From positions 16,040,467 through 16,104,466 of the forward strand of contig CM026423.1 of the NCBI GenBank assembly GCA_014871385.1: 64,000 bases of DNA, in the 5' to 3' direction. Position numbers and translations under genes: made by a program. The DNA comes from Ceratodon purpureus (Eukaryota; Streptophyta; Bryopsida; Pseudoditrichales; Ditrichaceae). A model generated the notes under the pieces. It saw only the letters and a program-made list of their open reading frames with translations. It ran no database searches and was not told the origin of the DNA. Below are positions 22,435 to 44,019 of this stretch, piece after piece. Position 1 is the stretch's first letter. Each line of letters opens with the position of its first letter.

Positions 22435-22442
22435 CTTCACAC
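22435..22442. repeat. Candidate target-site duplication, left copy
   Basis: CTTCACAC lies directly left of the left inverted repeat and recurs at 44012-44019, directly right of the right one. Eight bases fits the 8-11 bp duplications of MULE elements. Confidence 0.5.
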
Positions 22443-22505
22443 GGGGGTAGCTTGTATGGTAGCGGCGAGCGGCGAGCGGAGATTTGGTGAGCGACGAGCA
22501 GAAAA
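22443..22505 (+). repeat. Left terminal inverted repeat
   Basis: See the complement at 43955-44011. The core is two copies of GCGGCGAGC followed by GGAGA. A further GAGCG-CGAGCAGA match appears after a six-base gap. Confidence 0.5.
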
Positions 22506-22956
22506 TAGAGGTCTAAATCTAAAAACAGTAATATTATTACTAAAAATAAAAACTATTTTTAGCAAATTCGAATATTCTCAAAATATTCTAAAAAATATTC
22601 TGAGAATATTACTATTTTTGGTAATAATTATGACCCTATAACCGTGGACTGGAATTCAGTATTTCTGATAATTTTGATTTTTCATTTGTGTTATTCCCTT
22701 CTTGGTTTTATTTTTAAATACTATTTACGGTTCGTATTAATGCATCATCTAGAAGTTGCATTTATTATCTTATATTTATTTAATTTTTAATTTATTTTAA
22801 CATTTTATCTTTTAACTCTTTATAAGCATTTATTCTTTTTATCTTTAATCGTTTTTTAATTATTTTCAACTTTCATACCTTTTATCTTTTCATTGTTTTT
22901 ATTTTCTATTATCATTAATTTTAGATTTTTTTACACTGTTTTCTTTTTTTTCTTCA

Positions 22957-22958
<2 letters not shown>

Positions 22959-23000
<42 letters not shown>
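22959..23000. repeat. (TA)n microsatellite
   Basis: About 20 uninterrupted TA dinucleotides inside AT-rich, T-rich sequence upstream of the small gene at 23362. Confidence 0.9.
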
Positions 23001-23003
<3 letters not shown>

Positions 23004-23233
23004 CATCTTTTATCTTTTTTGATTTCTAATTTTTTAATCACTTTTTTTTTTTTCATTCGTCCTCTACTTTACTATCTTCTAAGTCTTTACCTTTTCATTT
23101 TTTATCTTTTATCTTTTGAAAGACCTTCTAGTTCACTCTCCATTGATGGTTTAGGGTATTTTGTCTACAAATTAATCAAAACAGTGATGACAAACCTACT
23201 CATGCCATGGAGTGTTATAATATTTAAACCTTC

Positions 23234-23241
23234 TTATATAT
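23234..23241 (+). promoter_or_regulatory. TATA-box candidate
   Basis: TTATATAT lies about 120 bases upstream of the ATG at 23362, a spacing similar to that of the other genes of this element. Confidence 0.4.
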
Positions 23242-23361
23242 CCCACTATTCAAGGGCGCCGAGCATCTACCTCCTCAATATTTAAGTAGTGGCAGTAGAA
23301 GCTCTCATCCTCTTTGTTCGTGCTCTTCTTGAATCAAGTTCCAAGAAGAGCGTGTTGTGAT

Positions 23362-23814
23362 ATGGAAGTTGCCGGGTTAACCACTATCTCACTTGGTGAT
23401 GTCCTTGGCCCATTTCATCCGTATGAGGAGGTCGAGGGGGAGGAGGAGTTGAATGGGTGCAATGAAGGGCATTCTGAAAATGATGGCGTGGAAGCAAAAA
23501 TAGATGTGATAGGGGACACAGTGGCTGTAGATGAGCCACACGTTCTCGTAGTTCCCCAGGAGGAACCGATTGTCCCTTTGGCACCTCATGCATACTCCAA
23601 GGTCGGGAAGATTCCACCGGGGACTTATTCTAGGGAGGCATTACGTGGAAAGAGTGAAGCTATTCCATTGTTGAAACGTCCCCGCCCACGACAAGTGCCA
23701 ATTAGGGAACGAACAATGAATGTCAATGTAGCTTGTCCTGTAGTGCAGGAGGTAGTTCGTGATTGTGCTGAAAATGCGAAGGGGATTTCTAAACGCATTA
23801 AGTTCAAGGAATAA
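23362..23814 (+). CDS. Small acidic protein of the element, unknown function
   Basis: A single-exon frame of 150 residues, starting at ATG 23362 with a TATA-like sequence upstream. Residues 20-75 are strongly acidic. Residues 85-150 are basic and contain KRPRPRQ and a KRIKFKE C-terminus that could serve as nuclear localisation signals. I recognise no domain. It converges on the transposase gene, so it may be an accessory protein of the element (DNA or chromatin binding), but that is inference from position and charge only. Confidence 0.45.
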   Translation: MEVAGLTTISLGDVLGPFHPYEEVEGEEELNGCNEGHSENDGVEAKIDVIGDTVAVDEPHVLVVPQEEPIVPLAPHAYSKVGKIPPGTYSREALRGKSEAIPLLKRPRPRQVPIRERTMNVNVACPVVQEVVRDCAENAKGISKRIKFKE

Positions 23815-24073
23815 AATCTATATTTGAATGTATTCATGGAGTGAGTACAGTCCAATTGTGCGTTGATATAAATAACAAATGCCACTTGTTGAAATGAATG
23901 GTATTGTAATACAATGTAATAAGTGTGAATGACAAAACCTTTATATTGAAATAGGCAATACGAGATTTGTATTGCTGACTCAGTACAAGGAAAAATTCAA
24001 TCACCTCGGGCTAAGTATCCGCATGTACCACTGTCCACTATGCATACTTGAGACCATAATAGTAGAGTGCCTC

Positions 24074-27000
24074 CTATTTTTTGGCCAAGGGGTGTGTCAA
24101 GATTCCGCTCTCTAGGACTAGCTTGACTTCGTTGAAACTAAAGGTAGGCGCATGGATGAAAAGCTCGGCTTCCGGATTACGGTTGCAGACCTTTAAAAGG
24201 ATGTAATAAATATGTTTACAGTATGAAAACTGTATCTTACCTCGAAACTTAGTCATCGTCTTCTTGAATGCTGGACAAGTGCAACTCGGGTAAGAGGCGA
24301 TGGTGATGTTGTACTGTGTGATGTTTGGAGCAACGCCCGAATCCAGCCCGATGATGCAACCATGGCCTGGATGAGGTATCATTGTGATGGAACGGAGGCG
24401 AGCCTTGAGGGACTGAGAGGAGCCCATGGAGAGTCGCTGCGCTGGGTTAGGTCGAGTTGCTGTGCGTTTGACCATCTTCCCATCTCGTTTACCAGGGTAG
24501 CGGTCAGCCTCTGCTGGAATCGGCAACGAAGCGAGGTTTGCAGGAGGCGGAGCAGACGAGAAGAGACGTCTTGGGGAGACTGGCTTCTTCGGCGGGAGTT
24601 GGAATCCTGCAGCTTCAAGGGCAAGGATCTCATTAAGCTTCAGGTTAGTATATAGTTTTACGGGCCACACCTCTGGAATCGGCGGCACTTCGAGGTCCTT
24701 GGAGTAGTGTGCAACCCACTTGCGCCTTGTGCCTTTCACGCAGCGCTCAATATCATCGGAGCAAAAGAAAAACTCTGTCCTCTCAACCGTATTCCTGCGA
24801 TAGTTAGTCCAAACTCCGGTGTAGGTCGCTGCAGCAGTGAAGTTTGGGCCCCTGACAATTCTTTCAGTGCACTTCTTTTTTGTACCAGCTCTTTGGGCCC
24901 AGCAGCACTTTGCAGAAGCTTTGTGAAGTCTTGCAATGTGCCACTCCTTCACATCAACCTTGGTTTCTTCAACAGCATTGACATGGCGAACGCCGACCTC
25001 GTTCACAGGAGACGTTGGGGGCGAGCAAGCTTCTTGGGCGGGAGATTCTTGGGCCTCTTCTTCTTCTGAATCGTCCTCGACGATGATGGGCAGCTGGACA
25101 GGGCGAGCTCGAACGTTGCGTCCAACACCTCTAGGACGTGAGAAGTTAACCTTGTCTGGTCGGTGTGACTCCTCGTCAGCTCCGATGGGAACGTCCGCCT
25201 TACGCTTCTGTGATCCAAACACCTCTGCTCCGGCCAGGACAGGCTCACGCGTGCAGAACTCATCTGCACCAGGCATATCCAGCATGGGATCTTTAAGGAC
25301 TTTAGGATTTCCTGTTTTCTTCGCCAAGCGTTCCGCCATTCGAAGCTTGAGTTCCTTCTTTGAAGGTCCAGTTCCGCCTACATCTCCTTTCAGGAACTGG
25401 TAGTAGTTTACAACCTGCAGAAAACCCCGAACGTAATCGTCCACAGTCGCAACATAGAGGTCGCTGCCGTTGTTACCTGATGCTTGTAACCACTTATTGT
25501 GAACTGTTTCGGCGAGGTTACATGTCGGCATCTCTGTGAGTTCTTCTTCAGTAAATTTCTGCAGTTTGAGTAATTACAGTAATTAGAATAAATTATAGAA
25601 GTGATGTCAATTAAGTTTACCAAAACAGAAAACAAGTTTAGTAGAAGGGTGTAGTAGCATCATACCGCAGACATGAATCCACCCCACTGACGGTAGCGGT
25701 GGTGCCAGAATGCGAGCCAAGTCCCCAGATTCGTTAGGGCCTTCTCTCCCAGGACCCCAATAGATATCCACCATGCCTGCAACGCGTGATAAAGAGTGTC
25801 CGCCTCTGTCATAGTCGTTGCTGTCCTATACTGGTTGCACATCTTCTTGTGCTGTTCCCGGAGCTCTTCGGGGAAATACTTGTCTGTATACTGGACCATA
25901 TTCTGAGTCCAGTGGAACAAGCATGACCTCTCCCGATCCTCCATTTTGTCTTCTTTGTTGCCATTTCCGTAGAGCATACGCACCGCATTCCAATTTGCTT
26001 GTGCGTTGTCCGCCATGAATCCTTTGAAGTTTGGCGCTGCAACGCCATTCCTCTCCATTACGCTGTTTAGGTTCTTCCAGAAGACCAACTGAGCCTCGGT
26101 GTCCTCGGATTGCATGTCGCAACTTGCAATCGTCATGACGCGGCAGTAGGTGGCGTCATATACATGGCAAGCCATCGTGGACCAATCCCGTACACGCTTC
26201 ACGTGGTCAAACATAATCCAAGCATTGTCAAGATCCCCACCAGGTTGCATTCTGGTGACTAAGTCGACACCACAACCCGGCCCAACTTCTGACATCTTGA
26301 AAACGAAGACCTTCTCTCTGTCAGCTCCTTGGCCCGGGAATTTATTCTCCTGGACGAAGGCCCACAAACTGATCCCTCGGAGTTTGGTGATGGCGTCCAT
26401 CACTCCGTACCTTCCAATTCGCTTGAACGTCATCACCTTGTTCCGGATATTTGGAGAAGCCAGGTCCTTGCACCGGTCAAGTACAGGAATGAGCTCCTCC
26501 ATGCTCAGCTTCTTTGGTGGTGCGTCCTCAGGCTGTAGGAGGTAGTTCCCAATCAGAATCTTGCTGGCCTCCAGGACAACGGCGCTCTTCGTAGCCCGGG
26601 GAGTATTCTCCACCTGTTCTTCAATCAAGCTATTGATCTCCTCCTTAGTGTCTCTATAGTCTCCAACCTTCACTGGATGATTATGTGTTCCTTGATGGAT
26701 ACATGCCCTAGTCTGGTTGGATTTACCTAGAACATAATAAATCTTGGCTCCGCATGTAGCAATGCATGCCGGAGGTTCTTTACATACCTTGCAGACAAGT
26801 GTTGCATCCGCTGGGGGTGGCTGATTCACTGTAAAAGGTTGGAGGGTACTACCCTCAAACTCAGTCTCGTTTACCTCAACGATTCGAGGTCGACGGTTGA
26901 GAAATTCACAGTCTTTGTTGACGCAGCGCAGCCAACCAACGCAGCTGGAATAGCGGAACGACAGGCCGAACTCGTTAGTGATGTTGGTAGTGATTGTCTT

Positions 27001-27786
27001 CGTCCAAATGTGGCCGTCGTACCGCTTGTCCATCCCCTTCATAGCCTTCGCTTGTGTCTTGGAAGCCCCGTCACCAACTGGAGGGAGCTCAAATATCACA
27101 TTATTGTTGAAGACTGCAGGTAAGTACTCCACCTTCTCCTGACGAACTGTGGAGAAATCTATTCTCTTCAGAATATTTTTCCTCCCAGGTCTCTCTGCAA
27201 GTGTCCTAATGAGTGGCAGTACATTGACAGTCTCCTCCTTTGATGTCTGTGAGGTACTGGCACATTTCTCTGGTACTGTAGCTGGAGTGCTAGATACTAC
27301 AGTCTCTCTAGGCAAAGCAGGTGATGCCTTGACAGGACTAGTCTCCTCATCTGACGAGAGGAAGATGACTGGTGTTACATCAGGAGTGTCCAAGCCAGGC
27401 TCTACTTTAACCTTCACATCACGAGGTAGAGGAGTCTGAACAGTAGATGATCTACGAGGAGTTAGAATCTCAGTAGACGCCTGCATCTGGGACTCTGTAA
27501 GACCATAAACTCTGTATCTACCAGGATAAAGGTTCCAGAACCTGTTATCATCATCATCTTTTTCAGAAACCTGATCTAGCGTATGTGTAATCTCATTTGT
27601 CTCATCATCATAAATCTCTTCCTCTAAACAGATAGTCTCCTCTCTGAAGTGAAATCTGAGGCTAAGGCGTTGTGCCGTGACAAGGGCCAAGCCATCCTCA
27701 TCTACACGTACAGTAAGTGGAATACCAACACCCTGTGCTCTGAGCACGGCCATGCCTAACACTCTATCTGCAGGGAGATGAGCCAT
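24074..27786 (-). CDS. MULE transposase with WRKY-GCM1-like and SWIM zinc fingers
   Basis: Two minus-strand exons, 27786-25666 and 25558-24074, join in phase 0 to about 1,201 residues. The N-terminal 200 residues are acidic/low complexity and include VIFLSSDEE, a SUMO-interaction-type motif. A WRKY-GCM1-like finger follows (WLRCVNKDC, CKVC, then GTHNH). A MULE core comes next, with candidate acidic residues in CHVYDATY and FKGFMADNAQANWN. Near the C-terminus is a SWIM finger (CTC then YCKH). MULE transposases cut and paste elements with long inverted repeats and 8-11 bp target duplications. The frame is long and unbroken across both exons, so the gene may be active. The alternative start at 27840 is a TTG. 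Confidence 0.8.
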
Positions 27787-28371
27787 GCTAAGATGTGTGC
27801 TGATAAAATGAGTTGGTGCTAAAGGAATTTGTGAACACAAATTGAGAGGAATAGGACATAGTGATCACTCTATTTATTCTAAGTGGAATTTTACATTCAT
27901 TTTAGTGAATTCTATATACCTCATATTCGTAGATGAAAAGGACTATGAGAGAATAGAATGAATCAATTATGGAGCCGTCGTTTGGTGTGCAGACGTGTCA
28001 TTCCAAAGTATTTTTAAAATTTGAATCATGGTCCACTTTTTATTCGTCAAATGTTTGCACATTATTAGGCATAGCCGTCTTTGAAATAAATTATAGTTGG
28101 ATCTGGTACTCGAATTGTTATTTCTAGTTGAAAATAGAAAATCCCTTAAATTTCGGCTTAGCATGATTTGAAAGACTGCAGATTCAGCTGAAGTCACTCA
28201 AATTTCAAGTTGTAGAGGAAAGATATCGTTCATCCAAGTCTGGTTCGTTATCATTAGAGGACTCTATATAACAACTGACTGAAGCTCTTGTCATCTATTT
28301 TCTTGGGCATTTTGCTGTCATGAGTGTAACCTATCATTTTGCTGCTTGCCTCTTGATGCTTTGAGTGTGCT
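27787..28371. promoter_or_regulatory. Divergent promoter region
   Basis: This lies between the transposase (minus) and the ParB-methyltransferase gene (plus). TATATA at 28265-28270 is about 100 bases before the plus-strand ATG. On the minus strand AATAAATAGAG (complement, about 27868-27880) sits about 90 bases before the transposase ATG. The two genes may share regulation. Confidence 0.5.
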
Positions 28372-31300
28372 ATGCTGGCTTTACCTAAGAAGCGGCGAAA
28401 GAAAGTGTCGACACATTTTAGTAGCGCTAAGGACCTTAGACGTAGTAAGATGGCTAGAGCTAGAAAAGAGGCTGAAAGATTTCAGAAGGATGGCATAACT
28501 AGAGCATTAGACTTTGAGAAGACAGACGGAGACTCAGCATTAGGGGGCATTGAAGAAGATAGCACATTGCGTTACGAAAGACGTCTGAAGCATTCGAACC
28601 CAAAAGTCGTGGAATCTGATTCAAGTCGAAGCGCTGGAAATAAGGTATGTTACATCTGCAATTATGTTTTCTTTGAAAATGGCCTACTGAATTTTACCCA
28701 TGAGTGTTACCATTACCAACCTTTGACACGACAGTTAACATCGCCGGGTAGCTTATTTTAGGTTCCCCAAATAATTAAGACCTCGTTCAGACCGCCCTTC
28801 CTCTACCTCCTCCCTTTCTGCCATCGACTTATTTTCATTATGGTGCGTGTTCTAATCTTCTTTGGCTTCCTTTAGGGTTAATCGTTGACACCTTTCTTAT
28901 TGCTGGAGCTTCGTTATCGTGATCCCTGTGAGAGAATCGGGTTAGCTCATCTACTTCCTCTGCGATACAAGTCAATCTGGTTAGGTGATTGAGGGTGTTG
29001 AGAGCTTTTGCAGATTTGGATTAGACTGATTGTTGTCAACGTGTTTGCTGTATCAGATGATGGGTACGCAGCAGGAGTCATCGGAGCAATCCGAAGAAGA
29101 AGTGACGCAGGACAAGGCTTTACGAACGCCACACTCTGATGGGCCCACGGAGATTATCGGTCCCGGCAATGAAGATGAGAACATGGGTGATGTTGATGGC
29201 CATGGCGGTGACGATGCCCATTGCGGTGACGATGGCCTAGATGCTGGGGATGGCAACGACAATGAGGACGAAGAAGACGACGACGCCGATAACGACCCAA
29301 GGCCGGAGCAGTCTGAAGGTAATTTACATTGCTCCTTTGTGGGTTTTGTAGTGTTTGGTTGCACTCGAAATACTTCTACAGACAGGTCAACCTTGAACAT
29401 CTAACCTAGAACTCGCATGAATCGTCTGAGTTAGAATGTCCTCCACATGGGTTTCGTATATTTCATCGATCCGTATGCTCTGCCTTAATAACTCGTCGAT
29501 AGTACTGCCGTTAACGGCAGTACAAAATCAGTCAATACTGTTAACAAAAATTCGCGGCTTTAAGTTTTGAATTGATGTTGAAGTGCATTCCTCTCCCTTC
29601 GTTTATTGGTTAGCTCTTGGTCTGTGATGGACGTCTTGATCCCAGATTAGCTTTTGATTTATGTGTCTTGAATAGAACTGTAGTACCTGCGCATCCAACT
29701 GCAGTTGTATTTGTACTGCTTTGCCAAAGTACTACTATTCCCATAACAATTTCACCCTCGTGGCTTCTAGTTCATAAGCCTAAGATTAATTTGTTGAGGA
29801 CTTGCATTGTACTGCCGTTAACGGCAGTACAATTCTTGCCTTTTAAGCTTTATCGTATCAACACCATTGTTTCCCGTGATTGCCCTTCAGGACTTTATTT
29901 CTTACTTCATGGAGCCAGATTGACAACATCCACAATAGCTTTTGACTTAGATAATATTTACTTATGGGATTGGTTAAATCGCAAATTGCTCACTTTCAGA
30001 TAAGCAAAAGGCCTTCTAGTAGTACTGCCGTTAACGGCAGTACAATTATTGGTTTATTTTTGCTTGCAAATTTATGTGAAATTGTACTGCCGGTAACGAC
30101 ATTTCCCAGGCCGCTCAGTTTGATTCTGTGCTTAAGTCTTAGAAGGTTCATTTATTATAAGCCCTTAGTATGTTATGTATAATTAAATTTAACACACATA
30201 TTCTTTTTAGTACGATTATATTTACCTTATTGTATAAAGCTTCTCAAATCGCTTCCAATTATTGTTACTTGAAAAATACCAAAGGGTACTGCCGTTAACG
30301 GCAGTACCCTAGGGCACGGGTTTCAACCCCAGGGCACGGGCAAGGGTTGCACTAAATATGAAGGGCAGCTTATATGTAGTGAGTTATACGAAGGCCCCAA
30401 AGGTACTGCCGTTAACGGCAGTACCAAAGGAGCAGTCATTGTTCATTCGCATTTACAACAGAACTTGTAGTGCCGTTAACGGCAGTTGTTTTGATCAGCG
30501 TTTTCCGACCCTCGTTGAACCCATATAATCACCAGATTTTTTGGAGCATTCGAATTTGAGTATCTAATAATGGTATCTTATCAATACCGCAGTACAATGT
30601 AGTAGGCATTTTAATCCAATTTACGATGCTTATAATCGATTCAGTAATTATTAGTAAAATGTAGTGTGAATTTTCGATTGATTGTGGACAATAGCAGGCT
30701 ATTCTTCCAATATGTAATGCTGTGCTTCTGTACTGCCGTTAACGGCAGTACATTTTTGTGCCATTTGTTTGACATCTTGATAGACCGAAAATGTACTGCC
30801 GTTAACGGCAGTACAAAAGCACTGCTTTATTTTCATATCATGCATTCGTTACTAGTGTATTCTGATATATTTGAGTGTGGACATTCTTCCAATATTTAAT
30901 GCTGTGCTTTTGTACTGCCGTTAACGGCAGTACATTTTTGTGCCATTTGTTTGACATCTTGACAGACCGAAAATGTACTGCCGTTAACGGCAGTACATTT
31001 TTGTGCCATTGGCTTCACATCTTTACAGACCAAAAATGTACTGCCGTTAACGGCAGTACAAAAGCATGGCTATATTTTCATATCATGCATTCGTTACATC
31101 TGGGACTCTGATAGATTTGAATGCAACTCAAGTCTTTAAATAGTTTTTATTTAAGCTTCAAGTTGGTTCTCACTGTACTGCCGTTAACGGCAGTTGGTTT
31201 TGCGTGGTACTTGGATGTCTGTCGAAATGACTCTTCGAGCACTTATATCGTGCATTCTGAAATCCGTTTCAGTACTGCCGTCAACGGCAGTTGTTCTAAT

Positions 31301-34300
31301 CCAAGTAATGTGTCTCTTTTTAAACTCTCTTGAAAGCATGCGATGTTCACGGTTCTAGATATTCTATCAAATAAAATAAAGGGTTAGGCATATGACTTAC
31401 TGTTTCGAGATCTTTATTTTGCAGATGCTATCTCCTTAACAGAGAGCGAGGTTAAAGCAAAACTCCACGATTTAGTTGAGAGAGAGCTTCCAAATACTGC
31501 ATCACGTTTGGGTGATTTAAAGTGGGAGCCAAAAGCTAAGGGTAGGTTGTTTATTCCACTATGTCGAATGCAGTCTCTTCCAGTCGTGAGGCCATACTTG
31601 AAGACCGATGTTTCGCAGCTAGCGTCGTTCTTTGTGAAGACAGGATACCTGGAAGGGAATGGGTTTTTTTATGTTTCTATCCAGGATAATCATGGCCATA
31701 CTGTTGATGTCACTCCGGCTATTACGAACAGTTGGAGCCCGGAATGGCGTCAGGTGAATGAAGATTTTGAGAAGACGCTGTTGGTGGATGAGGATCTGAA
31801 GGTCTTTTCAAATAAAATGTTTATGGTATGGGATGGTAATCATCGGCTGCAAGCATGGTATCCTATCATAAATGAGTATCATTCCCGGGACATAAACTGG
31901 CATTACAAAGTTGAGAGCATTATACTGGACCCGAAAGGCGATGTTCCAGCAGTCATTGCGGCCTTACACGAAGTAAATTGGTAAGCATTTTCTCTATACT
32001 TGTTCTTATGATATCCTTTTTGATAATGGTTCACTAAATAAGGAGTTGATCTAAAATTGTGCAGGAGAAATCAGAAGTCTCATGTCACCACGAATATGGT
32101 CCACAAACTGTTTAGGATACAGAGTGTTGCACCGCAACCCTTCAGCTACTTCGAAGGCCTTGTTCCACCTGCGGCAATTGAGAGTGCCAAGAAAAAGCAG
32201 GCTGGTGCGAAGCGGACTTGGTATACTCTCACAGTAGAGTCCCTCAATTCATTTTTATACCAGGTAATTCGAAACTGACCTTCAATTTCTGCGGTTTTCT
32301 TTAAATAATTTTCGATAAATTCTTATATTTTTACTTGATGTTTTCTCAGCAAGAGATAGGTGAAGCGGCTTCAAGCGCGGAGCAGCGATACTATGAAATG
32401 TATCCTGAAAAGCACATGTGGACGAACAAGTCTGTAGATGAATGGGTTAGATTGGCAGTTGAAAAAGTAGTTGCCACGCAACAAGGGGAACTCAGGAAGT
32501 TGCTACCTATTGCGGATCCGAAGCATACACCGGCTTTTCTTGAGCAAGTCAAACTTCATTATGAGAAGTTCCCATCCCCAGAAATGCAACAGGAGAAACT
32601 CAACATGTTCGCAACTTCTGCCATCCCAACTAAGATGAAAATCAAGTGGTTGGAACGATGGAACTCCCCTGAGTCAATCCGAAAGTCTCACCGGTTTCCC
32701 AAGCCTACTTTCGCCGACATAGTATTTCCTCCATGGCTTCACAAAGCCACATGGTGGGCACAGGTAACTAATTCTCAAAGTTATATTTTAAGTGTTTTAG
32801 ATTTGCATCGCATTAAACTGAAATGTTATGGTATGATGTATCGGTACTGCCGTTGACGGCAGTACATTTTAATGCTCCTCGAGATCCTCCCAGTTAGCCT
32901 CCAAATGTACTGCCGTTAACGGCAGTTCATTGTAATGTACTTGGTGTCTGACCTTGGCAGCCTCCACATGTAGTGCCGTTAACGGCAGTTCATTTTACTG
33001 CAATTGTTGTCTGTCCTTCGTAGCCTCCACATGTACTGCCGTTAACGGCAGTACATTTATATACTCTTAATTTTTCTCCCTAGTTGCTTCCACATCTACT
33101 CCCGTTAACGGTTGTACTAATTCAAGAATTAATTTTATCTTCAAACGTTAACCTTAGTTGAAACAGTAAGATTAAAGGGCTTTCCTTAGTTTTGCATTCG
33201 GTCACATGTATGCATAAATAATTCAGAATTGGACTGATTTTCAAGGGCTTTTTCTAGTTATTTGAGACTTCTTATGCGTTGCTCTGATTGTCCTGTTACC
33301 GGCAACACATTTTAGAGCTTTGTTTGTAGTGCCGCGACGGACTCCAAATGTACTGCCGTTAACGGCAGTACCAGGGGCTTCATTTTATTTTTATGTTATA
33401 TGGCACTGATTGCAAAGCTTCATTTCACTTTATGTTATATAGCACTAATCGACTTTACATGCCTCACTAATTTGGGGCTGCAGCTAAGTGAAGCTGGTTC
33501 TCCTTTAAGTAAAATATCCTAGCTTCAGTTGTAGTACCTTGTCTTTCATTAGGTTTCGTTTCAGCAAATGTTATATATAATTTAAATTGTTATCCTAATG
33601 TTTTAAGTGTTTTCAATGCTTGAGATATATTTGCTTATAATCTCCTTGAATGTTCAGTTAGCAATAGAAGCTGATGAAGCAGTAGAAACAGTAGTTACCT
33701 GTTTTGCATTAAAATTCATATGCGCATTTTCGGTACTGCCGTTAACGGCAGTACATTGCAGGGCTTTTTTGGTTCTGCCGGTAGAGACTTTCAATGTACT
33801 GCCGTTAACGGCAGTACCAGAGTCATCCTTCTTCTTTCGATTGATTGGCACTGATTGCCAGGCCGTGTTTGCATGATACTGTGTTTTAGTGCACCAGTTG
33901 ACAGCAGTTACTTTTTATGCGTATTAATTCATTTTACCATTTTACAATTAAGCATGTGTAATTTAGGATTGGAATGTCACTGTTGTTGATGCTTGTTTCT
34001 TAGAGTTCTAATTTGCTAATAACCTCTTTGATTGTTCAGCTGGCAGTAGAAGCTGAGGAGCTATTTGAGGCGGTTGTCACCGACCTAGGGGTGACCATTA
34101 ATTACTGCCCTGATGGAGAGAATCCTATTGAGAAAATATTTGATTATGTGGAGGCCATGCGTTGCTCCCTTTGGGACAATGCGTTTTTCAGAGAATTCAT
34201 GGGGGCTGATCAGGCACACAAGAATAAAACTAAGGACCAACAGCCTAATTTTCAGCCAGCTTTGAGAAGAATTCTTTACCGATATTTCAAATACATATTG

Positions 34301-36387
34301 CTTCCTCGGAAAGCAGTGACGCGGGTACCTGCCTTTTTTCCCACTTATCTTGACGTCACCAGTCCCGAGTGCATGTATACAAGTGCTATCTTGAAGGCAT
34401 GGGACAACTGCCACTATGATCGTTGCGGTTGGTATCTTGACTGCCCGGTGAAGAAACCACCTCCGTTCGATATCCAGCTGCGAGACTCCCTTCAGCCAAC
34501 ACTTGCAAACATTGCCCCTGCTCCAGCTAAAGCGAATGTGTCACCTGTAGCAACAAAGAAGTCCAGAAGGGCAGCTGGGGCAAGCAAAACTCGGGGTGCA
34601 AAACGCAAAGCAACTGATCTGATAGAAGAGAATCAAGATGAAGACATTCCTGCAACAACCGCTGCGAGCGGGGAGTTAGTTGAGAAAGAAGCCCCCCCTG
34701 TGATATCACCAAATTGCACCAAGTCACCTTCACCAACGCAGCAGGTTCATAAGAAGCCGCATGTCGAAGATTTTGAGACTGCTTCAGGTACCCCACTTAT
34801 CCCCCCATCGCTAAAATCCTTGGTTATATCCCAGCCATCGTCAAGCTCAGCACATTCCTGTGAGGTGTTGGTCCTCAACGACACCTTTCCAAAGATGATG
34901 GAGTACAAGAACAAGGAGAAGAAATTTCCAAAAACCTTCGACAACATGATATCATTTCTCCTTAAGGTATTCTTAATATCCACTCATTATGTAGCATGTT
35001 TTAATGTTTTATTTTGAATTCATCATTTAATTTACTGCCTTTCATGTCATTCCAGACTGGTGCGAATCGGGAATTCCACTTTGGAGGAAAACTATTGTCA
35101 AAGCCTGGAGTTGACCTTGTTATAGCAGATCTTCCTGACGGCCTCCCGGTTCCTGGAGTGTCAGACCCACCCTCCCAAGTACCTGCCTGGAACCAGCAAA
35201 TCAAATTCTTTTTGAAGTTTGTCATTGGATTTTGCGGTGGCTATTTGCATGACGATGGAGCGTTGTTGATCTTTGCTCCGGATAGTTCACACTTTAAGAA
35301 AGAGTTGACTTCCTTTCTCAACAAAAACGACCTGAAGGAGTTGAAGGAGTGGTCGATAATCAATGCTCTCCACTTGTCACATCCCTCAGACCCCGACAGT
35401 TATGTGAGTTACATTATTATTTTTGTTTTATATTATTTTGTCTCATGAATATTACTTGTAAGATGCTTCTTCTGATGTTTGCTTTGTCTTTATGATCAGA
35501 CTTTAAAGTTTAAAGCGTACCTGCTTGTGAGATCCTTTGGTGCCAGCGTAGCCACGCAACCGAAGCCTCTTCTCCTCCCCTCCAGCCAGGGCGTGGGAAT
35601 GACTAACCTTGCTAAAGACGACGTGTTGTTTAACTGGGTCACTTTGGAGGATTGTCTAAAAAAGACAGATGGGAGGCCCTGGAGAGGCCCGAAAGAAAAA
35701 TCTCTTGCCCTGCTCCAATCCCTTATTTCTGGAATTTGTCCGATAAATGGTACCATCATCGACCTCACTGCCGGAACAGGTCTCTCTTGAACTCTTTTAA
35801 TTTTTTGTTTATACTACGATATTGCCTATCAGTTGATCATGCTTACTTGCTAATGACCATGTAAAATACTTCTATGTACAGGTGCCTCAATCCGTGCTGC
35901 AATAGCAACCAATAGAAACATAGTTGGACTTGAAGGGGACCAAGACATTTATAGGGAGGTACTGCTATCACTTCAAGTGCCTCTCATTAGCACAACGGGA
36001 AAAGAGCAGCCCGAAGTTCAAGAGCTTTCTGATGAAGAAACTCCATATCCTGAAGAGGATAAAATAGATTTATGTGAGTAAGTCTTTTGCTCACGCTGTA
36101 TTTAATTTCTGCTATTATGAATATTTTTTATGATTGAATTCCTGAATGCTGATTTTTGAGATCTGTCATACAGTCGCATGAGTGGTACTTCACCTTCCAC
36201 CGAGTCAAGCAACGATTGGGAACATACATGGAGTCTCCCATGCTATGCCGAGGCAAGAGCGCAGGTCCTCGCTGAAGAGTCTGAGCACAGTTCCAGTGCA
36301 TCATCTTCACCACGTAGCTATGATCCAAGAGTTGTCAAATTTATTGATCACAGTGCAATTGAAAGTGACGATTTGTTTTCTCCCTAG
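28372..36387 (+). CDS. ParB-like domain / amino-methyltransferase fusion protein
   Basis: Ten exons join with every phase consistent: 28372-28644, 29057-29318, 31425-31980, 32065-32263, 32350-32763, 34040-34966, 35056-35403, 35500-35779, 35882-36077 and 36174-36387. The product is 1,222 residues. Exon 1 has a PKKRRKK nuclear signal and exon 2 is acidic. Exon 3 contains a ParB-like motif, FMVWDGNHRLQAW (DGNHR at about 315-319). Exon 6 ends in a low-complexity basic linker. Exons 7-9 look like an N4-cytosine/N6-adenine methyltransferase in permuted order: motif IV position VDLVIADLPDG (about 901-905), a motif X-like RPWRGPKEKS, then the SAM-binding IIDLTAGTGAS (about 1079-1089). The catalytic DPPY-type motif is changed to DLPD, so activity is doubtful. 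ParB plus methylase fusions are typical of phages and bacteria; here introns show a eukaryotic gene. Introns 2 and 5 carry the palindrome arrays. Joining exon 1 to exon 2 is the least certain step. Confidence 0.65.
29502..31293. repeat. Palindrome array 1 (intron 2)
   Basis: Fourteen sites built on TACTGCCGTTAACGGCAGTA with a G/C pair outside, making a 22-bp palindrome. Starts are 29502, 29809, 30022, 30084 (degenerate), 30286, 30403, 30467 (variant), 30730, 30793, 30912, 30975, 31038, 31175 (variant) and 31272 (variant). Ten are perfect. Spacing is exactly 63 bp for 30730-30793, 30912-30975 and 30975-31038. All lie in intron 2 of the ParB-methyltransferase gene. Confidence 0.95.
32844..33817. 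repeat. Palindrome array 2 (intron 5)
   Basis: Eight sites of the same palindrome start at 32844, 32907, 32970, 33033, 33096, 33350, 33733 and 33796. Four are perfect (33033, 33350, 33733, 33796) and the others differ at one to several positions. The first five are spaced exactly 63 bp apart, as are the last two. Further weak relatives lie near 33292 and 33326. All are in intron 5 of the same gene; none occurs in an exon. Confidence 0.95.
33600..33710 (+). repeat. Duplicate of intron 5 end and exon 6 start
   Basis: The stretch ending in TTCAG-TTAGCAATAGAAGCTG repeats, with divergence, the authentic acceptor and exon start at about 33970-34080 (TTCAG-CTGGCAGTAGAAGCTG). The first copy soon loses its frame relation to the rest, so the downstream acceptor at 34039 is used in the model. 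It could act as a decoy splice site. Confidence 0.6.
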
Positions 36388-37446
36388 CTGTCTTATTTAT
36401 TCATGATGTTTCTTCATTTAGGATCTCAGTCTTATTGCATTGACATGCAAGTTTACATTTCGAAGAGGACACTGTGAATTCCTCCGTTTTGTTCATCTCT
36501 GTTGTTAGATGTCTGAACAATGGGTGCTTTTATTTGTTTAAAAGAAACACAGTAGATTTACAGACCTCGAAAGAGTATCCACTTCAGCTTGTGGAGTTGC
36601 TTTATACTTAGCAACCTGAATTTCAATTGGCCACATACGACGCTGAAATTAATTGTTAAAAGTTAATTGGACACATACATTCTTAATTGATTGTTTCCTA
36701 TGAAATCCTCCGCCATAAATTAAGCGCAGAAAACCACGCAATCAGAACTGATAAATGAATGAACAATACATTCATCCTGGCAATATTAGATGAACATTTT
36801 TGGAATCCAAATGCAAATTTCATTGAACTTCGAATAAGAATCTTTGCAAATTAGATTTGCTTAAGGGTAACGAAATGTACATCTTTCAAAGGAAACTAGT
36901 ACCTTACAGAAGGTCACAGAGTCAAATGGATAAAATAAGATTAAGAATTTGAAGCAAAATCAGCAGGAGATGGTGATATATACGACCTCGTAATCAAGCT
37001 TATTCTTTGTGTCACCTTCCAAAAATTAACTCATTCCCTTTCAGTTGGTCAGTTAAAACTTAACGCTTCAAAAATTGGTAGATTAATACTAATACAAAGT
37101 TAGTGTAGTTAAATCAGTCAGCTTGCGCCCTGGCTCAATGGAATATTTATGTCATTACCCGAATGAAGAAAGAAATACATTTGAAAATTCATTATTCTTC
37201 ATATAGAGAAAATTTATGATCCAATATATTGACGTTGAAATACATGCTCAAACCATATTCTTTATAAAAAGTGTTCAACTTATGAACAACTTTACCGAAG
37301 AGTCAAATTTAAAAACTATACAACTTGCAATTGGACGAATACATTGTTTTTTCTTCATATTTTTTTAATTTAATAAATTTCTTTCTGCAAGATTTTAAAT
37401 CTAATTAAACTAAAAGAATTATGTAAAAATTGCCATTGGAATCTAC
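36388..37446. other. AT-rich stretch without a gene
   Basis: 3' flank of the ParB-methyltransferase gene. No open frame or repeat of note. Confidence 0.6.
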
Positions 37447-38546
37447 ATGATCCCGTCTTCCTTCCCATCCCATCCCCATCCCCTTCCCCTCCCCATCCCC
37501 TTCTCCTCCCCCCTTCCCTCCCCTCTCCTTCCCCTCCCCATCCCCTTCCCCTCCCCCCTTCCCTCCCCTCCCCTTCCCCTTCCCCTCCCCCCTTCCCTCC
37601 CCTCCCCTTCCCCTCCCCATCCCCTTCCCCTTCCCCTCCCCCCTTCCCTCCCCTCCCCTTCCCCTCCCCATCCCCTTCCCCTCCCCATCCCCTTCCCCTC
37701 CCCCCTCCCCATCCCCTTCCCCTTCCCCTCCCCCCTTCCCTCCCCTCCCCTTCCCCTCCCCATCCCCTTCCCCTCCCCCCTTCCCTCCCCCCTCCCCATC
37801 CCCTTCCCCTTCCCCTCCCCCCTTCCCTCCCCTCCCCTTCCCCTCCCCCTCCCCCCTTCCCTCCCCTCCCCTTCCCCTCCCCATCCCCTTCCCCTCCCCC
37901 CTTCCCTCCCCTCTCCTTCCCCTCCCCATCCCCTTCCCCTCCCCCCTCCCCATCCCCTTCCCCTTCCCCTCCCCCCTTCCCTCCCCTCCCCTTCCCCTCC
38001 CCATCCCCTTCTCCTCCCCCCTTCCCTCCCCCCTCCCCATCCCCTTCCCCTTCCCCTCCCCCCTTCCCTCCCCTCCCCTTCCCCTCCCCCTCCCCCCTTC
38101 CCTCCCCTCCCCTTCCCCTCCCCATCCCCTTCCCCTCCCCCCTTCCCTCCCCTCCCCTTCCCCTTCCCCTCCCCCCTTCCCTCCCCTCCCCTTCCCCTCC
38201 CCATCCCCTTCCCCTTCCCCTCCCCCCCTTCCCTCCCCTCCCCTTCCCCTCCCCATCCCCTTCCCCTCCCCATCCCCTTCCCCTCCCCCCTCCCCATCCC
38301 CTTCCCCTTCCCCTCCCCCCTTCCCTCCCCTCCCCTTCCCCTCCCCATCCCCTTCCCCTCCCCCCTTCCCTCCCCCCTCCCCATCCCCTTCCCCTTCCCC
38401 TCCCCCCTTCCCTCCCCTCCCCTTCCCCTCCCCCTCCCCCCTTCCCTCCCCTCCCCTTCCCTCCCCTCCCCATCCCCTTCCCTCCCCCTTCCCTCCCCTC
38501 TCCTTCCCCTCCCCATCCCCTTCCCCTCCCCCCTTCCCTCCCCTTA
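37447..38546 (+). repeat. 1.1-kb polypyrimidine (C/T) tract
   Basis: The plus strand is almost wholly C and T, with a lone A in recurring CCCCATCCCC words. Irregular units of CCCCTTCCCCTCCCC and CCCCCCTTCCCTCCCC recur throughout. The complement is G-rich purine, able to form triplex or G-quadruplex structures. The long Gly/Arg/Glu-type frames on either strand are a result of the repeat and are not called genes. Confidence 0.95.
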
Positions 38547-39320
38547 AGTCAATGGAGAAAAAGTATTTGACTTTAATCCATGAAGTGACAGTTCATGCTC
38601 ATTTAAAAACTATTTTAAAAAATACTTGGTTTTGCTAATTTTTTATATTGGAATCTCCCTGTGTTCCGTTTGTTTTATCAAGTTAATAAACTCATGTACT
38701 TGATTTGCACCAACAGTTTTGCAAAAATTACATCGGCACGCAATTAAAAAAATAAATGTTTTTTATTCAAACACCAACAACTCCATTATACTAAGGTATT
38801 ATTTTCTATCATCTAATACTCTAAATATTCCATGTTATAAGATATATGGTTATATTATCATTTACTTAACTATAACATCCCACAGTAATTCTACAAAGTA
38901 GTAATTCCATCTGTTGATTAGGGAATCTGTATAACACAATAACATTTTGGAATTAAAATAAGAATTGATGAACCCCTAAAATCAGATTGTATCAGTACTG
39001 TGACTGTACAGTTAATTATTAGCTGAAACAATATTACAGTTTCTCTTTTTATATTCCGCGTAGAAAATCAACAATAGAATGTTAACATTGAATCTACATT
39101 CTATAAGTTAACATGATTGTGAGAAATTGGAATGTTCATTTAATGGGAGAAAAGGTCAAATAGTTCATATCCAAAATAGTACTATAAAACAAGGTGCATA
39201 TAACCTGAAGTATTATAAGAAGCAAATAAGTTTCTAGGAATTGAATAACAAACACCAACCAAATACAGTTGTCAGCAAAAACTATTGTCTCTTTCAATTC
39301 AAACATTCTCTAACTGTTTT
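38547..39320. other. AT-rich stretch without a gene
   Basis: 3' flank of the minus-strand gene that ends at 39321. Nothing recognisable. Confidence 0.6.
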
Positions 39321-41529
39321 CTATCCCTTGGCTCCATGTGCACTAGCTCCAGATTTCAGGTTCTGCTCTTTTACTATCTGAAGGACGTCAGAAAATCCCG
39401 AACATTCAGTTCGCTGTTGCTGGTCCAATTCTCCACCAAACTGAGCAACCCATTGTCCTGTGAAATGTAAGGGCGATGATGCAAGTAGCCGGTCCTTACA
39501 CTTTCTGCACTTGTAGTTTTGACTAGCAACCAATTCTGCAACGCAAGATGGATGCAAGAAGCACCCACAGGAACATAGAACCGCGGCTTTCCAAACAAAT
39601 CCTAAGCCACAATAAGAACATGTATCCTGCCCCAAAATACCCAAAGGAGGTATTGACTCATGCGGATAATCAAAAACTCTTGGAGTCTTCATGGTGAGCA
39701 TTTTTCCTCTAACCTTCTCCACATTAGCCTTAGCGCTCTCCCATGCCAAAGTGGATGAATTCAGTGAGAATTTGTGTTTATTTACCTCGGACCTGAGTTC
39801 CAATACTCGATTTTGTAGTTGTGAATCAGAATCTCGTAGCTTTGAAACCTGACCTGAAATGAACTCCATCTCAGTTGTCAATGCCTTGTATTCCTGCGCT
39901 GCTCCCCCTTCAATTAAGATGCGCCTTGACTTCTTCTGTAATTCTGAATACTTTGAGTTCAGAGCCTCCTCCGCGACTTCTGCAGCCTCGGTAGTCATCT
40001 TCTCCAAGGCTGCATCGTATCTCTTTACAGAATCCTCAAAGACAGATTTGGCAGAAATCATCTCATTATTACGCACCTGCTCTTTCTCCTGGGCAGCTAA
40101 GAGCTCTTGCACATTTGTGGAATCTTCCATAGACTTCCATGACAACTCTTGTATAATTCTGCATAGACCCTGGACTTGACATCGAGTAGCAATAGGTCCC
40201 AACTTGGCAGGATTTCTCCTTGCATTCTTCAATCGAGCACTGTGCCGGTCAAGGGCCTCAGCGCACCAATTCACGGGCTTGTTATGAACAAAGGTTGCAT
40301 AACAAGCCTTCAGAAAACGTAACGGAAAGTAGGTGTTGTCTGGCTTGTTCCCATATACCTTAAAGAAATGATGCCGAAACTTCTTCAGCAGCTCCGGATC
40401 TTCACACCTAGCGAGTTCGTATCGCCCCTTTGTTGCTCCTTCCTTCCATACTGCGCTGATCTCCTCGTCCCTTATAAAGCTGTAAACTTTCGCTACATTT
40501 CTGATTAGAGGTCCGTGATCACATAAGCCTACAACGTCTGTAAAAAACTCTTTGCCATACTCAGCATACCGACCCATCAACATTGGAGCTGCTACGATCA
40601 TCTTCTCGCGGATATCACCTTGAATATCCCCTAGGTCAAATGGTTGATCAAATTCCTCTGCACAGTACCATTGGTCGGTGGAGCTCTCTTCTATATTTTT
40701 CTGTATCAATTCCTCACCAATCTCAGCAACTTCGCTTGGACCAGAGTTCTGGGTCCGCTGCTGTCGAGAACCTCTACTCCTTTTCGATGTCATGACCCTC
40801 AGAAGGAATTTAGGATTGAATGTCTTCCAAGTTGAAACTGTCCCAATAGCTGAGAAAATAGTCCAGGCAACTGAATCATCCATCATGTGAAATAAAATTA
40901 GTTGCAAAAAGAATGTGAACTTAACATTACCAATGTAGGTAAGACGTTGTTACTGAATGTGGTAAACTCACCTGTCGAGGTGGCGGCTGCCCTGTACGAT
41001 TCACAACCAACGAATTGGCAACGAAATTGGAGGCGGTAGCCCCACAAGAATCCAACCTCGGTGCAAATTAAATTGATCGCTAAAGTCTGTCAGAAAATGG
41101 CACCCCACATTAGTCCACAGCAGGCAGCAACTCACATTAAAATTATACAATACATAATAGGAGAAGTGTACAAATATCTTCTGTATTTTCAAAACCACTC
41201 GATCTGGCTTTTAAATTTGTTGCCAGTAAAAGTGCTTACCAGCGCTTGATGCTTTGTCTGATAGTCTGCAGTGAGGTCATCCTTGTACTCTGGCACCTCC
41301 TTCTCAAGGGCTGCAAACAAATCACAACAATCAGGTGTACTGTTCGAGAGCTTCTCATCAAGCTACTATCTCGAGATAACATCAGACATTATTTCCAGAC
41401 ATATTTCAAGGCAGTTTGAACAATAAAGATATTCTTGGTGACGATATTCTAAGGTACATCCAACTTACAGTTGACGGAGTCCTGGAAGATGTTCACAATA
41501 GAGGGACCCAACTTTCGCTTGTAGAAGTC
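39321..41529 (-). CDS. Coiled-coil protein with C-terminal RING/PHD-like zinc motif (5' end not found)
   Basis: At least four minus-strand exons join in consistent phase: 41529-41469, 41310-41240, 41086-40972 and 40849-39321 (591 residues). A first exon with the start codon was not identified; alternatively translation starts at ATG 40793 within the last exon (490 residues, MTSKRSRG start). The last exon encodes a globular part, a long coiled coil (about 200 residues rich in E, K, S, L) and a Cys-rich end. That end is CSYCGLGF, then CSCGCFLHPSC, then CRKC, which fits a RING- or PHD-like zinc fold. I do not recognise the family. The position inside the element suggests an accessory protein. 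Confidence 0.6.
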
Positions 41530-41921
41530 CTAGTTGATGTTGGTAGGTTTCTGTGCGTCAGAAGCCGAAAAAATTAATTAATATTCAGCATCTTGATCCA
41601 TCCAAAGCATGAAAATATGTACCAAACAGAAGAGGAGGCAGTGAATGGCAACGACACTTAGAAAACTATTTAGTTCTCAAATGTATACAATGAGAGCCAA
41701 TAGTAATTAGCTTCAGTGCGTTCTTCCATAACCTACCACGTTACAGCTTTAAGTCTCTCACACACAATCAAACACGGGCATTTCAATACCATGCATTGGA
41801 CACAGAGATGTAAGTTGATGTACTAAAGACACAGTTGTAAGGCAGAGTCGACAACATGAGCTGGAGAATTCAAGACTATCACTACTGTTTGTGTTCCGTT
41901 GTATTTAGAGATAGGTCTTAC

Positions 41922-42023
41922 AATGACAATCTGCGGTTCGTAGATGAATTCCAATCCTTGCAGCCGCAATTTCTCAAGCATGTCGTGCTCCAGAGCTCTC
42001 ACCTCGTCCAAAATGTACACCAC
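41922..42023 (-). pseudogene. Sucrose synthase exon fragment
   Basis: A 34-codon piece bounded by an AG acceptor and a GT donor reads VVYILDEVRALEHDMLEKLR and continues LQGLEFIYEPQIVI. This is the conserved start of the glucosyltransferase half of plant sucrose synthase (family form VVYILDQVRALE, then QGL and IVTRL). No adjoining sucrose synthase exons are present, so it is a captured fragment. Its phase would allow splicing to the exon at 41529. Confidence 0.7.
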
Positions 42024-42871
42024 CTGTGCTACACATAAAAAGAGTCTGAGTCCCCCAATGTTCACGAGTCCTCCGATGTTCACGAGATCAGCAACCAAGA
42101 GCGAAAATCCAGGAAGAAGGTATAAAGGAACTAGGTCTAGGCGTAAATTCTTCAAAGTACCTTAGACAGAGACATGGTATCGTTTGGCTTCATTAAATGT
42201 GCCAATGCCATTTACTGCTGAACCGTAACATGTCACCCATAAATCATTCAACTTAACTTTCTAGACAGGATGATAGTGATCCAAATAAGAGAAGATGATA
42301 AATATGAAAGGAAAACCTAAATCAAACTAGACGTAGTTGATGATAAAGAGATGTAATAATAAGGATAAGTCAACAATAAATATAAGGTCTGAAACTACTA
42401 AAAATTACTAGTAATTATAAAAAGACAGAAATTACTAAAAAGATTGATATTAAGAAAAAAAGGGATGAAAAAAGTATGTTCTAAAACATAAGCAGTACAT
42501 AAAGGTGAATTAAATTTAAAATGATTCAGGAATGCAAGAATGATAAAATTAAAGAATTAAATGCAAATTTTCAGAGAATATTTAGAAGTCTCTTGATTAT
42601 GCGTGATACAAGTATATGTTAAAAATAAAACAAAGAAAAAAAAAATACAGAGAAAACTATTATAGAGTTATAGAAATATTATTAAATCGTATTGAATAAA
42701 CATGTAGCAACACGATGGAATATACTTAATTAAGCATCTTGAATATTGTATGATTTTATGAATACAATGATTCTTCCAAAACCAGGCTAGACATATCTGT
42801 TTTTCGAACTAACGACATTTTATTACCGTGTGCAAAAATGTTGAATCCATTTATTCATAGACATACCTATC
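42024..42871. other. AT-rich stretch without a gene
   Basis: A short direct repeat of about 18 bp (CCAATGTTCACGAGTCCTCC-like, 42054-42085) is the only structure seen; the rest is A/T-rich. Confidence 0.5.
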
Positions 42872-43384
42872 TCATCTATGTTTAGGTGAGACCCAAATAC
42901 CATCACCTGGAATAAGTTTCTCTCCAGGTTCAAGCCACAGAGATTGGTTACCATCTCTACTCAACAATGTCCTCAACTGATCTAACTCATTACAACTAAG
43001 TTTCCCAAGTGACGCTGTCTCTAGCCTGTCATTTCCAATTGGATTTGCTAATGACCAAGAATTCTTAAAAATGTTCCAGTTCACATTGAAGCGAACCGCT
43101 TGAAACTCATCCCTGGAAGTCCAGTGCCCTCCCGTGTATGAATCATAATCCCACTTGGCAAGTCGAAGGCAAGCGTATTCTGTACTGCTGTCAATCTCCC
43201 GTCTCCAAAGCTTCGAAACAGCACGAGCATTCTCAACATCTTGAAATGTAATTACTGGTGGAGGAAACCAAGACTGTCCTATGCATGATCCCACTGACTC
43301 CCAAGGGTTAGGTCCATCTGCCATCCTTTGTAGCAAATCCTGAAGAATTGTTTCACAAGCTATGACTTCAAGGGAATTGCTCAT
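42872..43384 (-). CDS. Small F-box-like protein
   Basis: A single-exon frame of 170 residues. The N-terminal half (ETILQDLLQRM, then PPPVITFQDVENARAVSKLWRREI) resembles an F-box helix arrangement, and the following CLRLAKWDYD is like the start of the downstream region in divergent bryophyte F-box proteins. It is much shorter than a complete F-box/kelch protein, so it may be truncated. A TATAAA (complement, 43474-43479) lies about 90 bases upstream of the ATG. It lies near the right end of the candidate element and could be cargo. Confidence 0.4.
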   Translation of the reverse strand: MSNSLEVIACETILQDLLQRMADGPNPWESVGSCIGQSWFPPPVITFQDVENARAVSKLWRREIDSSTEYACLRLAKWDYDSYTGGHWTSRDEFQAVRFNVNWNIFKNSWSLANPIGNDRLETASLGKLSCNELDQLRTLLSRDGNQSLWLEPGEKLIPGDGIWVSPKHR

Positions 43385-43733
43385 ACTCTCAAAACTATGT
43401 CTACCATAAGCAACACTATGTCTACCATAGAACTGACCGCTGATTGAATTAAAGTGAACTCAACCCACCTAGGTTTATATGGTTTAATACTTAACTTAAA
43501 AAGGTACACTAGATCCTATCCGAAGACAAAGAAATTGTCAATAATTTCAGGCATTTCTTGAAGGTATATCAGTTTGGACTCATTATTCGCATTATTGTAC
43601 ACCTATTCTGAAAAATCCAAAGAAGTTTTCAAAGGTACATTATTTGTTTTGCAAGATTCCTTTCACTGTACCAGAAGCCAAGAAGACCTGGACCTCATTT
43701 AACTCTAAATATTCTCACTTAATAGCTATGAAG

Positions 43734-43754
43734 ATGACGTCATCACGACGTCAG
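43734..43754. promoter_or_regulatory. bZIP-type palindrome
   Basis: GATGACGTCATC (43734-43745) is a perfect palindrome with the TGACGTCA core bound by plant TGA/CREB-like bZIP factors. A second GACGTCA follows at 43748-43754. The F-box-like gene starts about 350 bases away on the minus strand. Confidence 0.4.
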
Positions 43755-43954
43755 CCCTAATTTTCTTTCTCTATATAATTGTCATTTATAAGTGAATGAG
43801 AAATAAAGTAGTTTCAAATAATAATACCACGGAATTAAATATCTTTTTATATCAGATTACTAAAAATAGAACACTAATTATAGTACTTCTCCACGGCTAT
43901 AGGGTGCATTTCTTTTTCCAAAAACTTGGTAAAATGTCAGATCTCGGCTCTCCC

Positions 43955-44011
43955 ATCTCTGCTCGCCGCTCTCCGCTCGCCGCTCGCCGCACGCATACGA
44001 ACTTTCCCCTG
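43955..44011 (-). repeat. Right terminal inverted repeat
   Basis: The complement matches the left repeat at 22443-22505 through the GCGGCGAGCGGCGAGCGGAG core. The flank CTTCACAC at 44012-44019 repeats the left flank. Confidence 0.5.
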
Positions 44012-44019
44012 CTTCACAC

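Follow-up and report, generated by a model that had tools for sequence, protein, structure and literature searches.

Within a 64,000-nucleotide stretch of the moss Ceratodon purpureus genome (contig CM026423.1; hereafter "the window," i.e., the whole of that stretch), a DNA transposon carries a methyltransferase-like gene, two introns of which hold arrays of a 22-bp palindrome. We observe such sites in other members of the gene's family, confined to non-coding DNA in and around the gene and written in codes that differ between subfamilies, and in four of the motif classes (A, C, D, and F) neighboring sites are separated by whole multiples of about 10.57 bp, which is the helical repeat of B-DNA. 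We suggest, with roughly even confidence, that the palindromes form arrays on which a dimeric protein, probably encoded by the transposon, would dock for self-recognition (autoregulation or anti-silencing).

A search of all 64 kb at ≤3 mismatches returned 21 copies of TACTGCCGTTAACGGCAGTA (14 perfect and 7 variant), 13 of them in intron 2 and 8 in intron 5; all lie within 29503–33816 and none in the rest of the window, and 100 dinucleotide-preserving shuffles of the window gave no match. The sequence-only reading from which we started had counted 14 perfect and 8 variant copies. Its perfect copies stand, and its eighth variant is reached only by admitting a degenerate copy (TACTGCCGGTAACGACAT, near 30085) that is legible in the sequence. 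Its claims that the sites are confined to introns 2 and 5 (given an in-frame upstream exon at 28372–28644) and absent elsewhere in the window likewise hold. G and C flank all 14 perfect copies, so that the unit is 22 bp long (GTACTGCCGTTAACGGCAGTAC), with one further base pair per side as that reading had proposed. Save for a TA run, the window holds no other perfect palindrome of at least 18 bp outside 29400–33900. Outside the sites, CpG in the array introns is mildly depleted (0.55–0.76).

At ≤2 mismatches the 362-Mb host genome contains 1295 palindrome sites, as compared with about 0.6 expected under uniform bases (a hand calculation) and 0 for a reversed-pattern control over the same genome. 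Among the exact sites listed (50; the total of 1295 is at ≤2 mismatches), 49 adjoin copies or parts of the methyltransferase-like gene, as predicted if the palindrome clusters at copies of this family. These 50 fall into six clusters: four that include the family's exon 3, one that includes its 3' exons (L010), and one, L005, with a single listed exact site in a decayed element that retains a transposase remnant and in which no methylase-like gene is detectable. That decayed element also holds an array of palindrome variants (L005:4907–6220), some of them GTGCCGTTAACGGCAC. At the closest other loci (L017–L045), sites flank exon 3 on both sides in 29 of 29 cases, and of 654 sites in 46 stretches of the family none overlaps a coding match, a count that includes overlapping loci (L024 with L012, L045 with L008/L009) and near-identical copies, and for which the coding mask comprised all matches, including those crossing an intron. 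With an earlier mask that omitted intron-crossing matches, 0 of 495 sites (38 loci) fell in coding sequence.

The 478 adjacent-pair spacings, measured center to center, cluster at 42, 63, 75, 86, 97, 106, 117, 126, 138, 149, 157–158, 192, 212, and 221 bp. When periods of 5–30 bp were scanned by class under class-specific site rules (scripted, with no hand editing), the best period was 10.55 bp for class A (443 spacings), 10.60 for class C (14), 10.50 for class D (9), and 10.65 for class F (35), i.e., these four classes peak within 0.15 bp of one another. Taking each distinct spacing once per class (n = 128), R was 0.52 at the a priori period of 10.5 bp (p = 6e-16) and, without class A (n = 51), 0.61 (p = 7e-9), p-values being used here as guides. 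The 96 distinct spacings of classes A–D (L053 counted with class C) fit a period of 10.57 bp (bootstrap 10.54–10.60), and no in-phase component appears at either the nucleosomal reference of 10.2 bp or the RNA-like one of 11.0 bp. Among 16 representative loci the phase component exceeded 0.3 in 14 (the others being L050, at 0.02, and L048, at 0.29), and p was below 0.05 on distinct spacings in 11; earlier hand-typed lists, with hits dropped or merged in L006/L007, L052, L054, and L056, had put 15 of 16 in phase, and we rely on the scripted 14. A generic-core variant of the test, which admits some false sites, gave R of 0.21 for L006 plus L007 and 0.29 for L052. In the analysis that counted L053 with class C, the 7 spacings of L005 gave a period of 6.2 bp. 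In 13 class A sequences, sites remain in phase with one another out to distances of about 640 bp. The ~10.57-bp phasing favors binding on one helix face and disfavors RNA hairpins, which the sequence-only reading had mentioned as something that the sites could form.

The code itself varies between subfamilies. Searches with exon 3 scored 150 of 1847 and 150 of 1862 candidate copies, and ten more diverged copies that were fetched (exon 3 about 62–76% identical) all carry other palindromes (10/10). Specifically, class B reads GCAGTGCCG-TTAA-CGGCACTGC and ACCGCCG-TTAA-CGGCGGT (L046 and L047; L050, rearranged), class C GCCG-GTAC-CGGC (L049, L052), class E ACTGCCG-GTGC-CGGCAGT (L048, L051, and most of L053), and class F GTACTGCCG-TTGC-CGGCAGTAC (L056, L057), and class D, found in a distant paralogue beside L047 (exon 3 about 40% identical), reads GTCTCTCG-GATC-CGAGAGAC and GTGTCTCG-GATC-CGAGACAC. 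All share one grammar, in which a 4-bp center peculiar to the class is enclosed by inverted half-sites that end in CG (for class A, ACTGCCG), and asymmetric centers occur in both orientations (in L056, GCAA 14 times and TTGC 8 times among 23 sites, counted with a generic core that admits some false sites, one of them in exon 2 of the window's gene). Copies that were fetched hold about 5 to 23 sites each; nine of the ten diverged copies have sites flanking exon 3 on either side, and L050 also has some between exons 6 and 7. The palindromes of L046 and L047 can be much longer, with a 106-bp perfect palindrome centered on GTTAAC (L046:3454–3559) and others of 44–60 bp; because their arms run far past the shared motif, hairpin-templated copying is suggested there.

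Conservation of the sites was assessed on 380 non-redundant of 562 sites, picked by allowing ≤1 mismatch within the 12 central bases, and conservation of the core is thus partly by construction. Positions 7–11 from the center, which were unused in picking, are symmetrical in 80–96% of sites as compared with 23–27% in controls, and the symmetry fades past position 13. Double changes are symmetrical in 21 of 25 cases at ±8 and 27 of 29 at ±10, probably in large part as inherited class differences. The exact 20-mer also recurs in L007, a copy whose gene is 49–69% identical to that of the window; between the array introns of the two, no alignment of more than 60 bp was obtained at E ≤ 1e-10. In a global alignment of the window with L012, identity in palindromes vs. 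the rest of the intron was 0.80 vs. 0.60 (intron 2) and 0.92 vs. 0.90 (intron 5), a comparison that is therefore of little use.

The last exons of the gene match PF01555 (N6_N4_Mtase; E = 7.5e-5, 23.2 bits, under the curated cut-off of 26.7), and its methylase-like region matches phrog_3008 (DNA methyltransferase; E = 1.3e-7). With Pfam at E ≤ 1, the spliced product without exon 1 returned N6_N4_Mtase alone, with neither DUF1985 nor ParB found. The usual catalytic motif IV of N6/N4 DNA methylases is [DNS]PP[YFW]; here the position reads [DE][LYV]P[DE] in 8 of 8 aligned sequences, and because the motif is replaced in all of them, methylase activity of the product is doubtful. The WDGNHRLQAW motif conserved in exon 3 resembles ParB/Srx by eye, and the sequence-only reading had ascribed a ParB-like domain to the gene's product. 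ParB identity is not supported, since a PF02195 search of the whole genome gave 0 matches (the same profile matches in 10 of 14 control genomes), a Pfam scan of exon 3 from six members and of the spliced product found no ParB, nor did a PDB profile search, and hhalign against three ParB structures returned a probability of 0.2% (thin profiles). What is left of the ParB-like domain is the motif as judged by eye and a sub-threshold DndB match (E = 0.2) in one of the six members; DUF5531 is matched, also below threshold, in three (best E = 0.005). A protein search with residues 80–480 found no relatives. The methylase part retrieved 22 metagenome proteins (of 1986 candidates), and these (P0001–P0022) are 33–63% identical to the methylase-like domain and have no precomputed Pfam domain; judged by this similarity, the methylase-like family also occurs outside this assembly. 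The viral contigs searched gave 2 weak methylase matches, 0 relatives of exon 3, and 0 copies of the 22-mer.

These observations can be joined in a model in which a dimeric DNA-binding protein would dock along one helix face in introns of the transposon's gene. Each site would present a pair of half-sites, ACTGCCG for class A, inverted about a 4-bp center that is specific to the class, and dimers bound at successive sites, whole helical turns apart, would line up and could act cooperatively. Docking on one face is suggested because helical phasing, palindromes of two turns, and absence from coding sequence coincide. The reader would most likely be encoded by the transposon rather than the host, because the codes are diverse inside one element family; the first candidate is the methyltransferase-like product, as the arrays sit in its gene's introns, and the second is a Cys/His-rich protein of the same element. 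By this route the element might recognize its own kind, and the arrays, by analogy with VANC, may serve autoregulation or help to hold the gene open against host silencing. A bolder version, which we consider rather unlikely, holds that the captured DNA-methylase-like family consists of sequence-specific address readers, each subfamily reading its own helically phased intronic palindrome as a private code by which to tell its own copies and escape or regulate silencing.

Several points weigh against docking by an element-encoded dimer. The binding of a protein, the choice of protein, and an anti-silencing or regulatory outcome are all inferred from sequence, and the gene product yielded no recognizable DNA-binding fold. 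The code does not point clearly to a reader. A motif class that follows exons 3–6 left no signature (A1 and A2 have just 2 private columns in common vs. up to 17 for other pairs), and one that follows the transposase is not supported, as the transposase of class C L055 is 94–96% identical to the window's vs. 96–98% among class A copies; transposase identity is lower in class E L048 (91% over 313 residues) and class B L050 (81%), which leaves the tracking unclear. Because the code tracks neither the conserved exons nor, clearly, the transposase, the reader stays at the level of a candidate. The layout also varies: the class D arrays occupy other non-coding places (1 site before exon 3, 6 in an intron at about residue 408, and 5 downstream of the gene), L052 has its array in intron 2 only, and class B palindromes reach 106 bp in places, beyond what a dimer needs. 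Phasing, too, is uneven. The best period is 11.45 bp for class E (21 spacings) and 24.55 bp for class B (30 spacings, nearly all one spacing of 105–108); L006 plus L007 (p = 0.06; one intron is out of phase), L047, L048, L050 (V = 0.02), and L052 are not significant singly; beyond ~640 bp coherence falls to 0.01 at 10.56 bp, with a best fit of 10.72; and the phasing p-values are guides because the copies are related and their spacings not independent.

Other explanations were weighed against the same data. The palindromes could be a functionless by-product of mutation, made and homogenized by tandem duplication and hairpin-templated copying, as tandem units of 63 and ~107 bp and the perfect palindromes of up to 106 bp in L046, which resemble template-switch products, would suggest. 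Yet unit lengths differ by class (about 63, 75, 86, 95, 107, 117, and 158 bp) and lie near helical multiples, no site among the 654 overlaps a coding match, the exact 20-mer outlasts the remainder of the introns, and symmetry is high at positions unused in picking, so that we hold this origin to be improbable. Folding in the intron transcript into stems of 8–9 bp with a 4-nt loop, with a role in splicing or as a source of small RNAs, would fit the symmetrical co-changes at ±8 and ±10, and the class-constant 4-nt centers, not always palindromic (TTGC, GTGC), would suit tetraloops. Phasing in linear DNA has no obvious sense in single-stranded RNA, however, and the presence of asymmetric centers in both orientations and the blank Rfam result over window positions 22000–44500 also speak against RNA hairpins, to which we assign quite a low probability.

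Helical phasing would suit cooperative arrays of a host transcription factor (e.g., MYB-type) whose enhancer sites the transposon had hijacked, and CCGTTAACGG holds two inverted copies of what we take to be a MYB-like core (CCGTTA/TAACGG). Other classes, however, swap the core (CCGGTACCGG, CTCGGATCCGAG) within a like architecture, a change that a conserved host factor would not follow, and hijacking of this kind has, we think, little chance of being right. Least probable of all would be parS-like sites at which a true ParB clamp loads on the element and aids its segregation or compaction; palindromes that cluster within a GNHR-bearing gene resemble such a system, and the sequence-only reading had drawn the parS comparison. 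The negative profile tests for ParB make it very doubtful.

The gene's position within a DNA transposon (Table 1) follows from the inverted ends, the CTTCACAC flanks, and the same left end in three other copies, and bears out the earlier proposal that a transposon carries it. The ends at 22443 and 44009–44011 match over about 40 bp (83% complementary), and the left one (GGGG..GGTAGCTTGTATG) recurs beside different flanks in L005, L009, and L015; both ends were observed together in the window copy only. In a check for Mutator-like affinity by Pfam transposase domains, the sole match was SWIM (E = 0.049, weak and below cut-off). Across four other copies the transposase protein is 96–98% identical and identity in the palindrome-bearing gene varies between about 50% and about 95%; in five copies the Cys/His-rich protein is 63–90% identical, in a mosaic pattern. 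When L006–L015 are compared with window 22443–44011, the methylase-like and Cys/His-rich genes vary independently (92–98% and 66–79%, respectively, in L012/L013; about 77% and 90% in L010), which, on sequence comparison, suggests module exchange between elements. The element also contains a C/T-rich simple repeat of about 1.1 kb (unit CCCTTC/CCTCCCCTTCCCCTCC; 37460–38545), and no Rfam match was found in window 22000–44500. An additional exon after exon 9, reaching 36387, is possible.

Table 1. Features of the palindrome-bearing gene and of its transposon, in window coordinates (ORF, open reading frame).
Feature	Position	Strand	Remarks
Exon 1, basic N terminus (predicted)	28372..28644	+	splice sites by eye, in frame with 29057
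Exon 2, acidic	29057..29318	+	gene model
Intron 2 with 13-site palindrome array (29503-31292)	29319..31424	+	gene model
Exon 3, WDGNHRLQAW domain (ParB-like by eye only)	31425..31980	+	gene model
Exon 4	32065..32263	+	gene model
Exon 5	32350..32763	+	gene model
Intron 5 with 8-site palindrome array (32845-33816)	32764..34039	+	gene model
Exon 6	34040..34966	+	gene model
Exons 7-9, N6/N4 methylase-like domain	35056-35403, 35500-35779, 35882 to about 36080	+	profile matches
DNA transposon, ~21.5 kb	22443..44011	.	~40-bp terminal inverted repeats, CTTCACAC (8 bp) at both flanks
Left target-site duplication CTTCACAC	22435..22442	.	
Right target-site duplication CTTCACAC	44012..44019	.	
Putative transposase, two long ORFs	24074..27840	-	SWIM-like finger, Pfam E 0.049, below cut-off
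Coiled-coil, Cys/His-rich protein gene (RING-like by eye)	39321..40907	-	
Small ORF kept among element copies	23314..23814	+	
Small ORF kept among element copies	42872..43384	-	

Elsewhere in the window, two near-identical TIR-NBS-LRR-like resistance genes (domains by eye; 45233–49038 and 60989–63458) form an apparent duplication ~15.8 kb apart, and hAT-type transposase-like long ORFs (by eye) lie at 1168–3789, the longer of them without a Pfam match.

If the private-code version of the model were true, gene and address code would travel and diversify together, and the moss elements would add a second example, apparently unrelated to the first, of transposons whose own genes contain a private DNA address. 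There are six motif classes in one genome, and helical phasing yields a sharp physical prediction that can be tested; such a natural panel of codes and proteins would let DNA recognition and escape from silencing be mapped by part swapping.

Among known systems, bacterial parS/ParB likewise has palindromes clustered near the gene of the supposed reader, but the moss product has no profile-detectable ParB homology, and its sites, about 5 to 23 per copy, are helically phased and intronic. Iterons of plasmids and viruses are multiple, helically spaced sites bound by an element-encoded protein; the moss sites, unlike iterons, are long palindromes in introns of a chromosomal transposon gene. Top-ranked titles and abstract openings in the literature included none on ParB- or N6/N4-methylase-like moss transposons or on helically phased intronic palindrome arrays. 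Capture of a DNA-methylase type of gene by transposons does have a counterpart in the cytosine methyltransferases of retrotransposons, as outlined in parts of PMC5890265, from which the moss case differs in its N6/N4-type methylase-like domain with altered motif IV, its DNA transposon, and its target-like intronic arrays.

The nearest precedent, by analogy, would be VANC and the VANDAL transposons of Arabidopsis, whose anti-silencing proteins and motif arrays are also treated in sections of PMC10398659. As described in portions of PMC5735166, motif arrays occupy non-coding parts of the VANDAL element, including introns of VANC21 and VANB21, motifs differ between related elements, and the accessory protein has diverged far more than the transposase; in the moss, correspondingly, sites flank exon 3 at all 29 nearest other loci, motif classes run from A to F, and the transposase is 96–98% identical (across classes, 94–96% in class C L055, 91%, in part, in L048, and 81% in L050). 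The two systems differ in that the VANC21 motif has 9 bases (YAGTATTAY) and its arrayed copies all face the same way, and the words palindrom, spacing, helical, and periodic are absent from the main text of that article (PMC5735166); in that VANC carries DUF1985 and the moss product is methylase-like with no DUF1985 match; and in that binding and loss of DNA methylation are demonstrated for VANC in Arabidopsis, in the portions of PMC5735166 cited here, whereas binding of the moss protein is a prediction.

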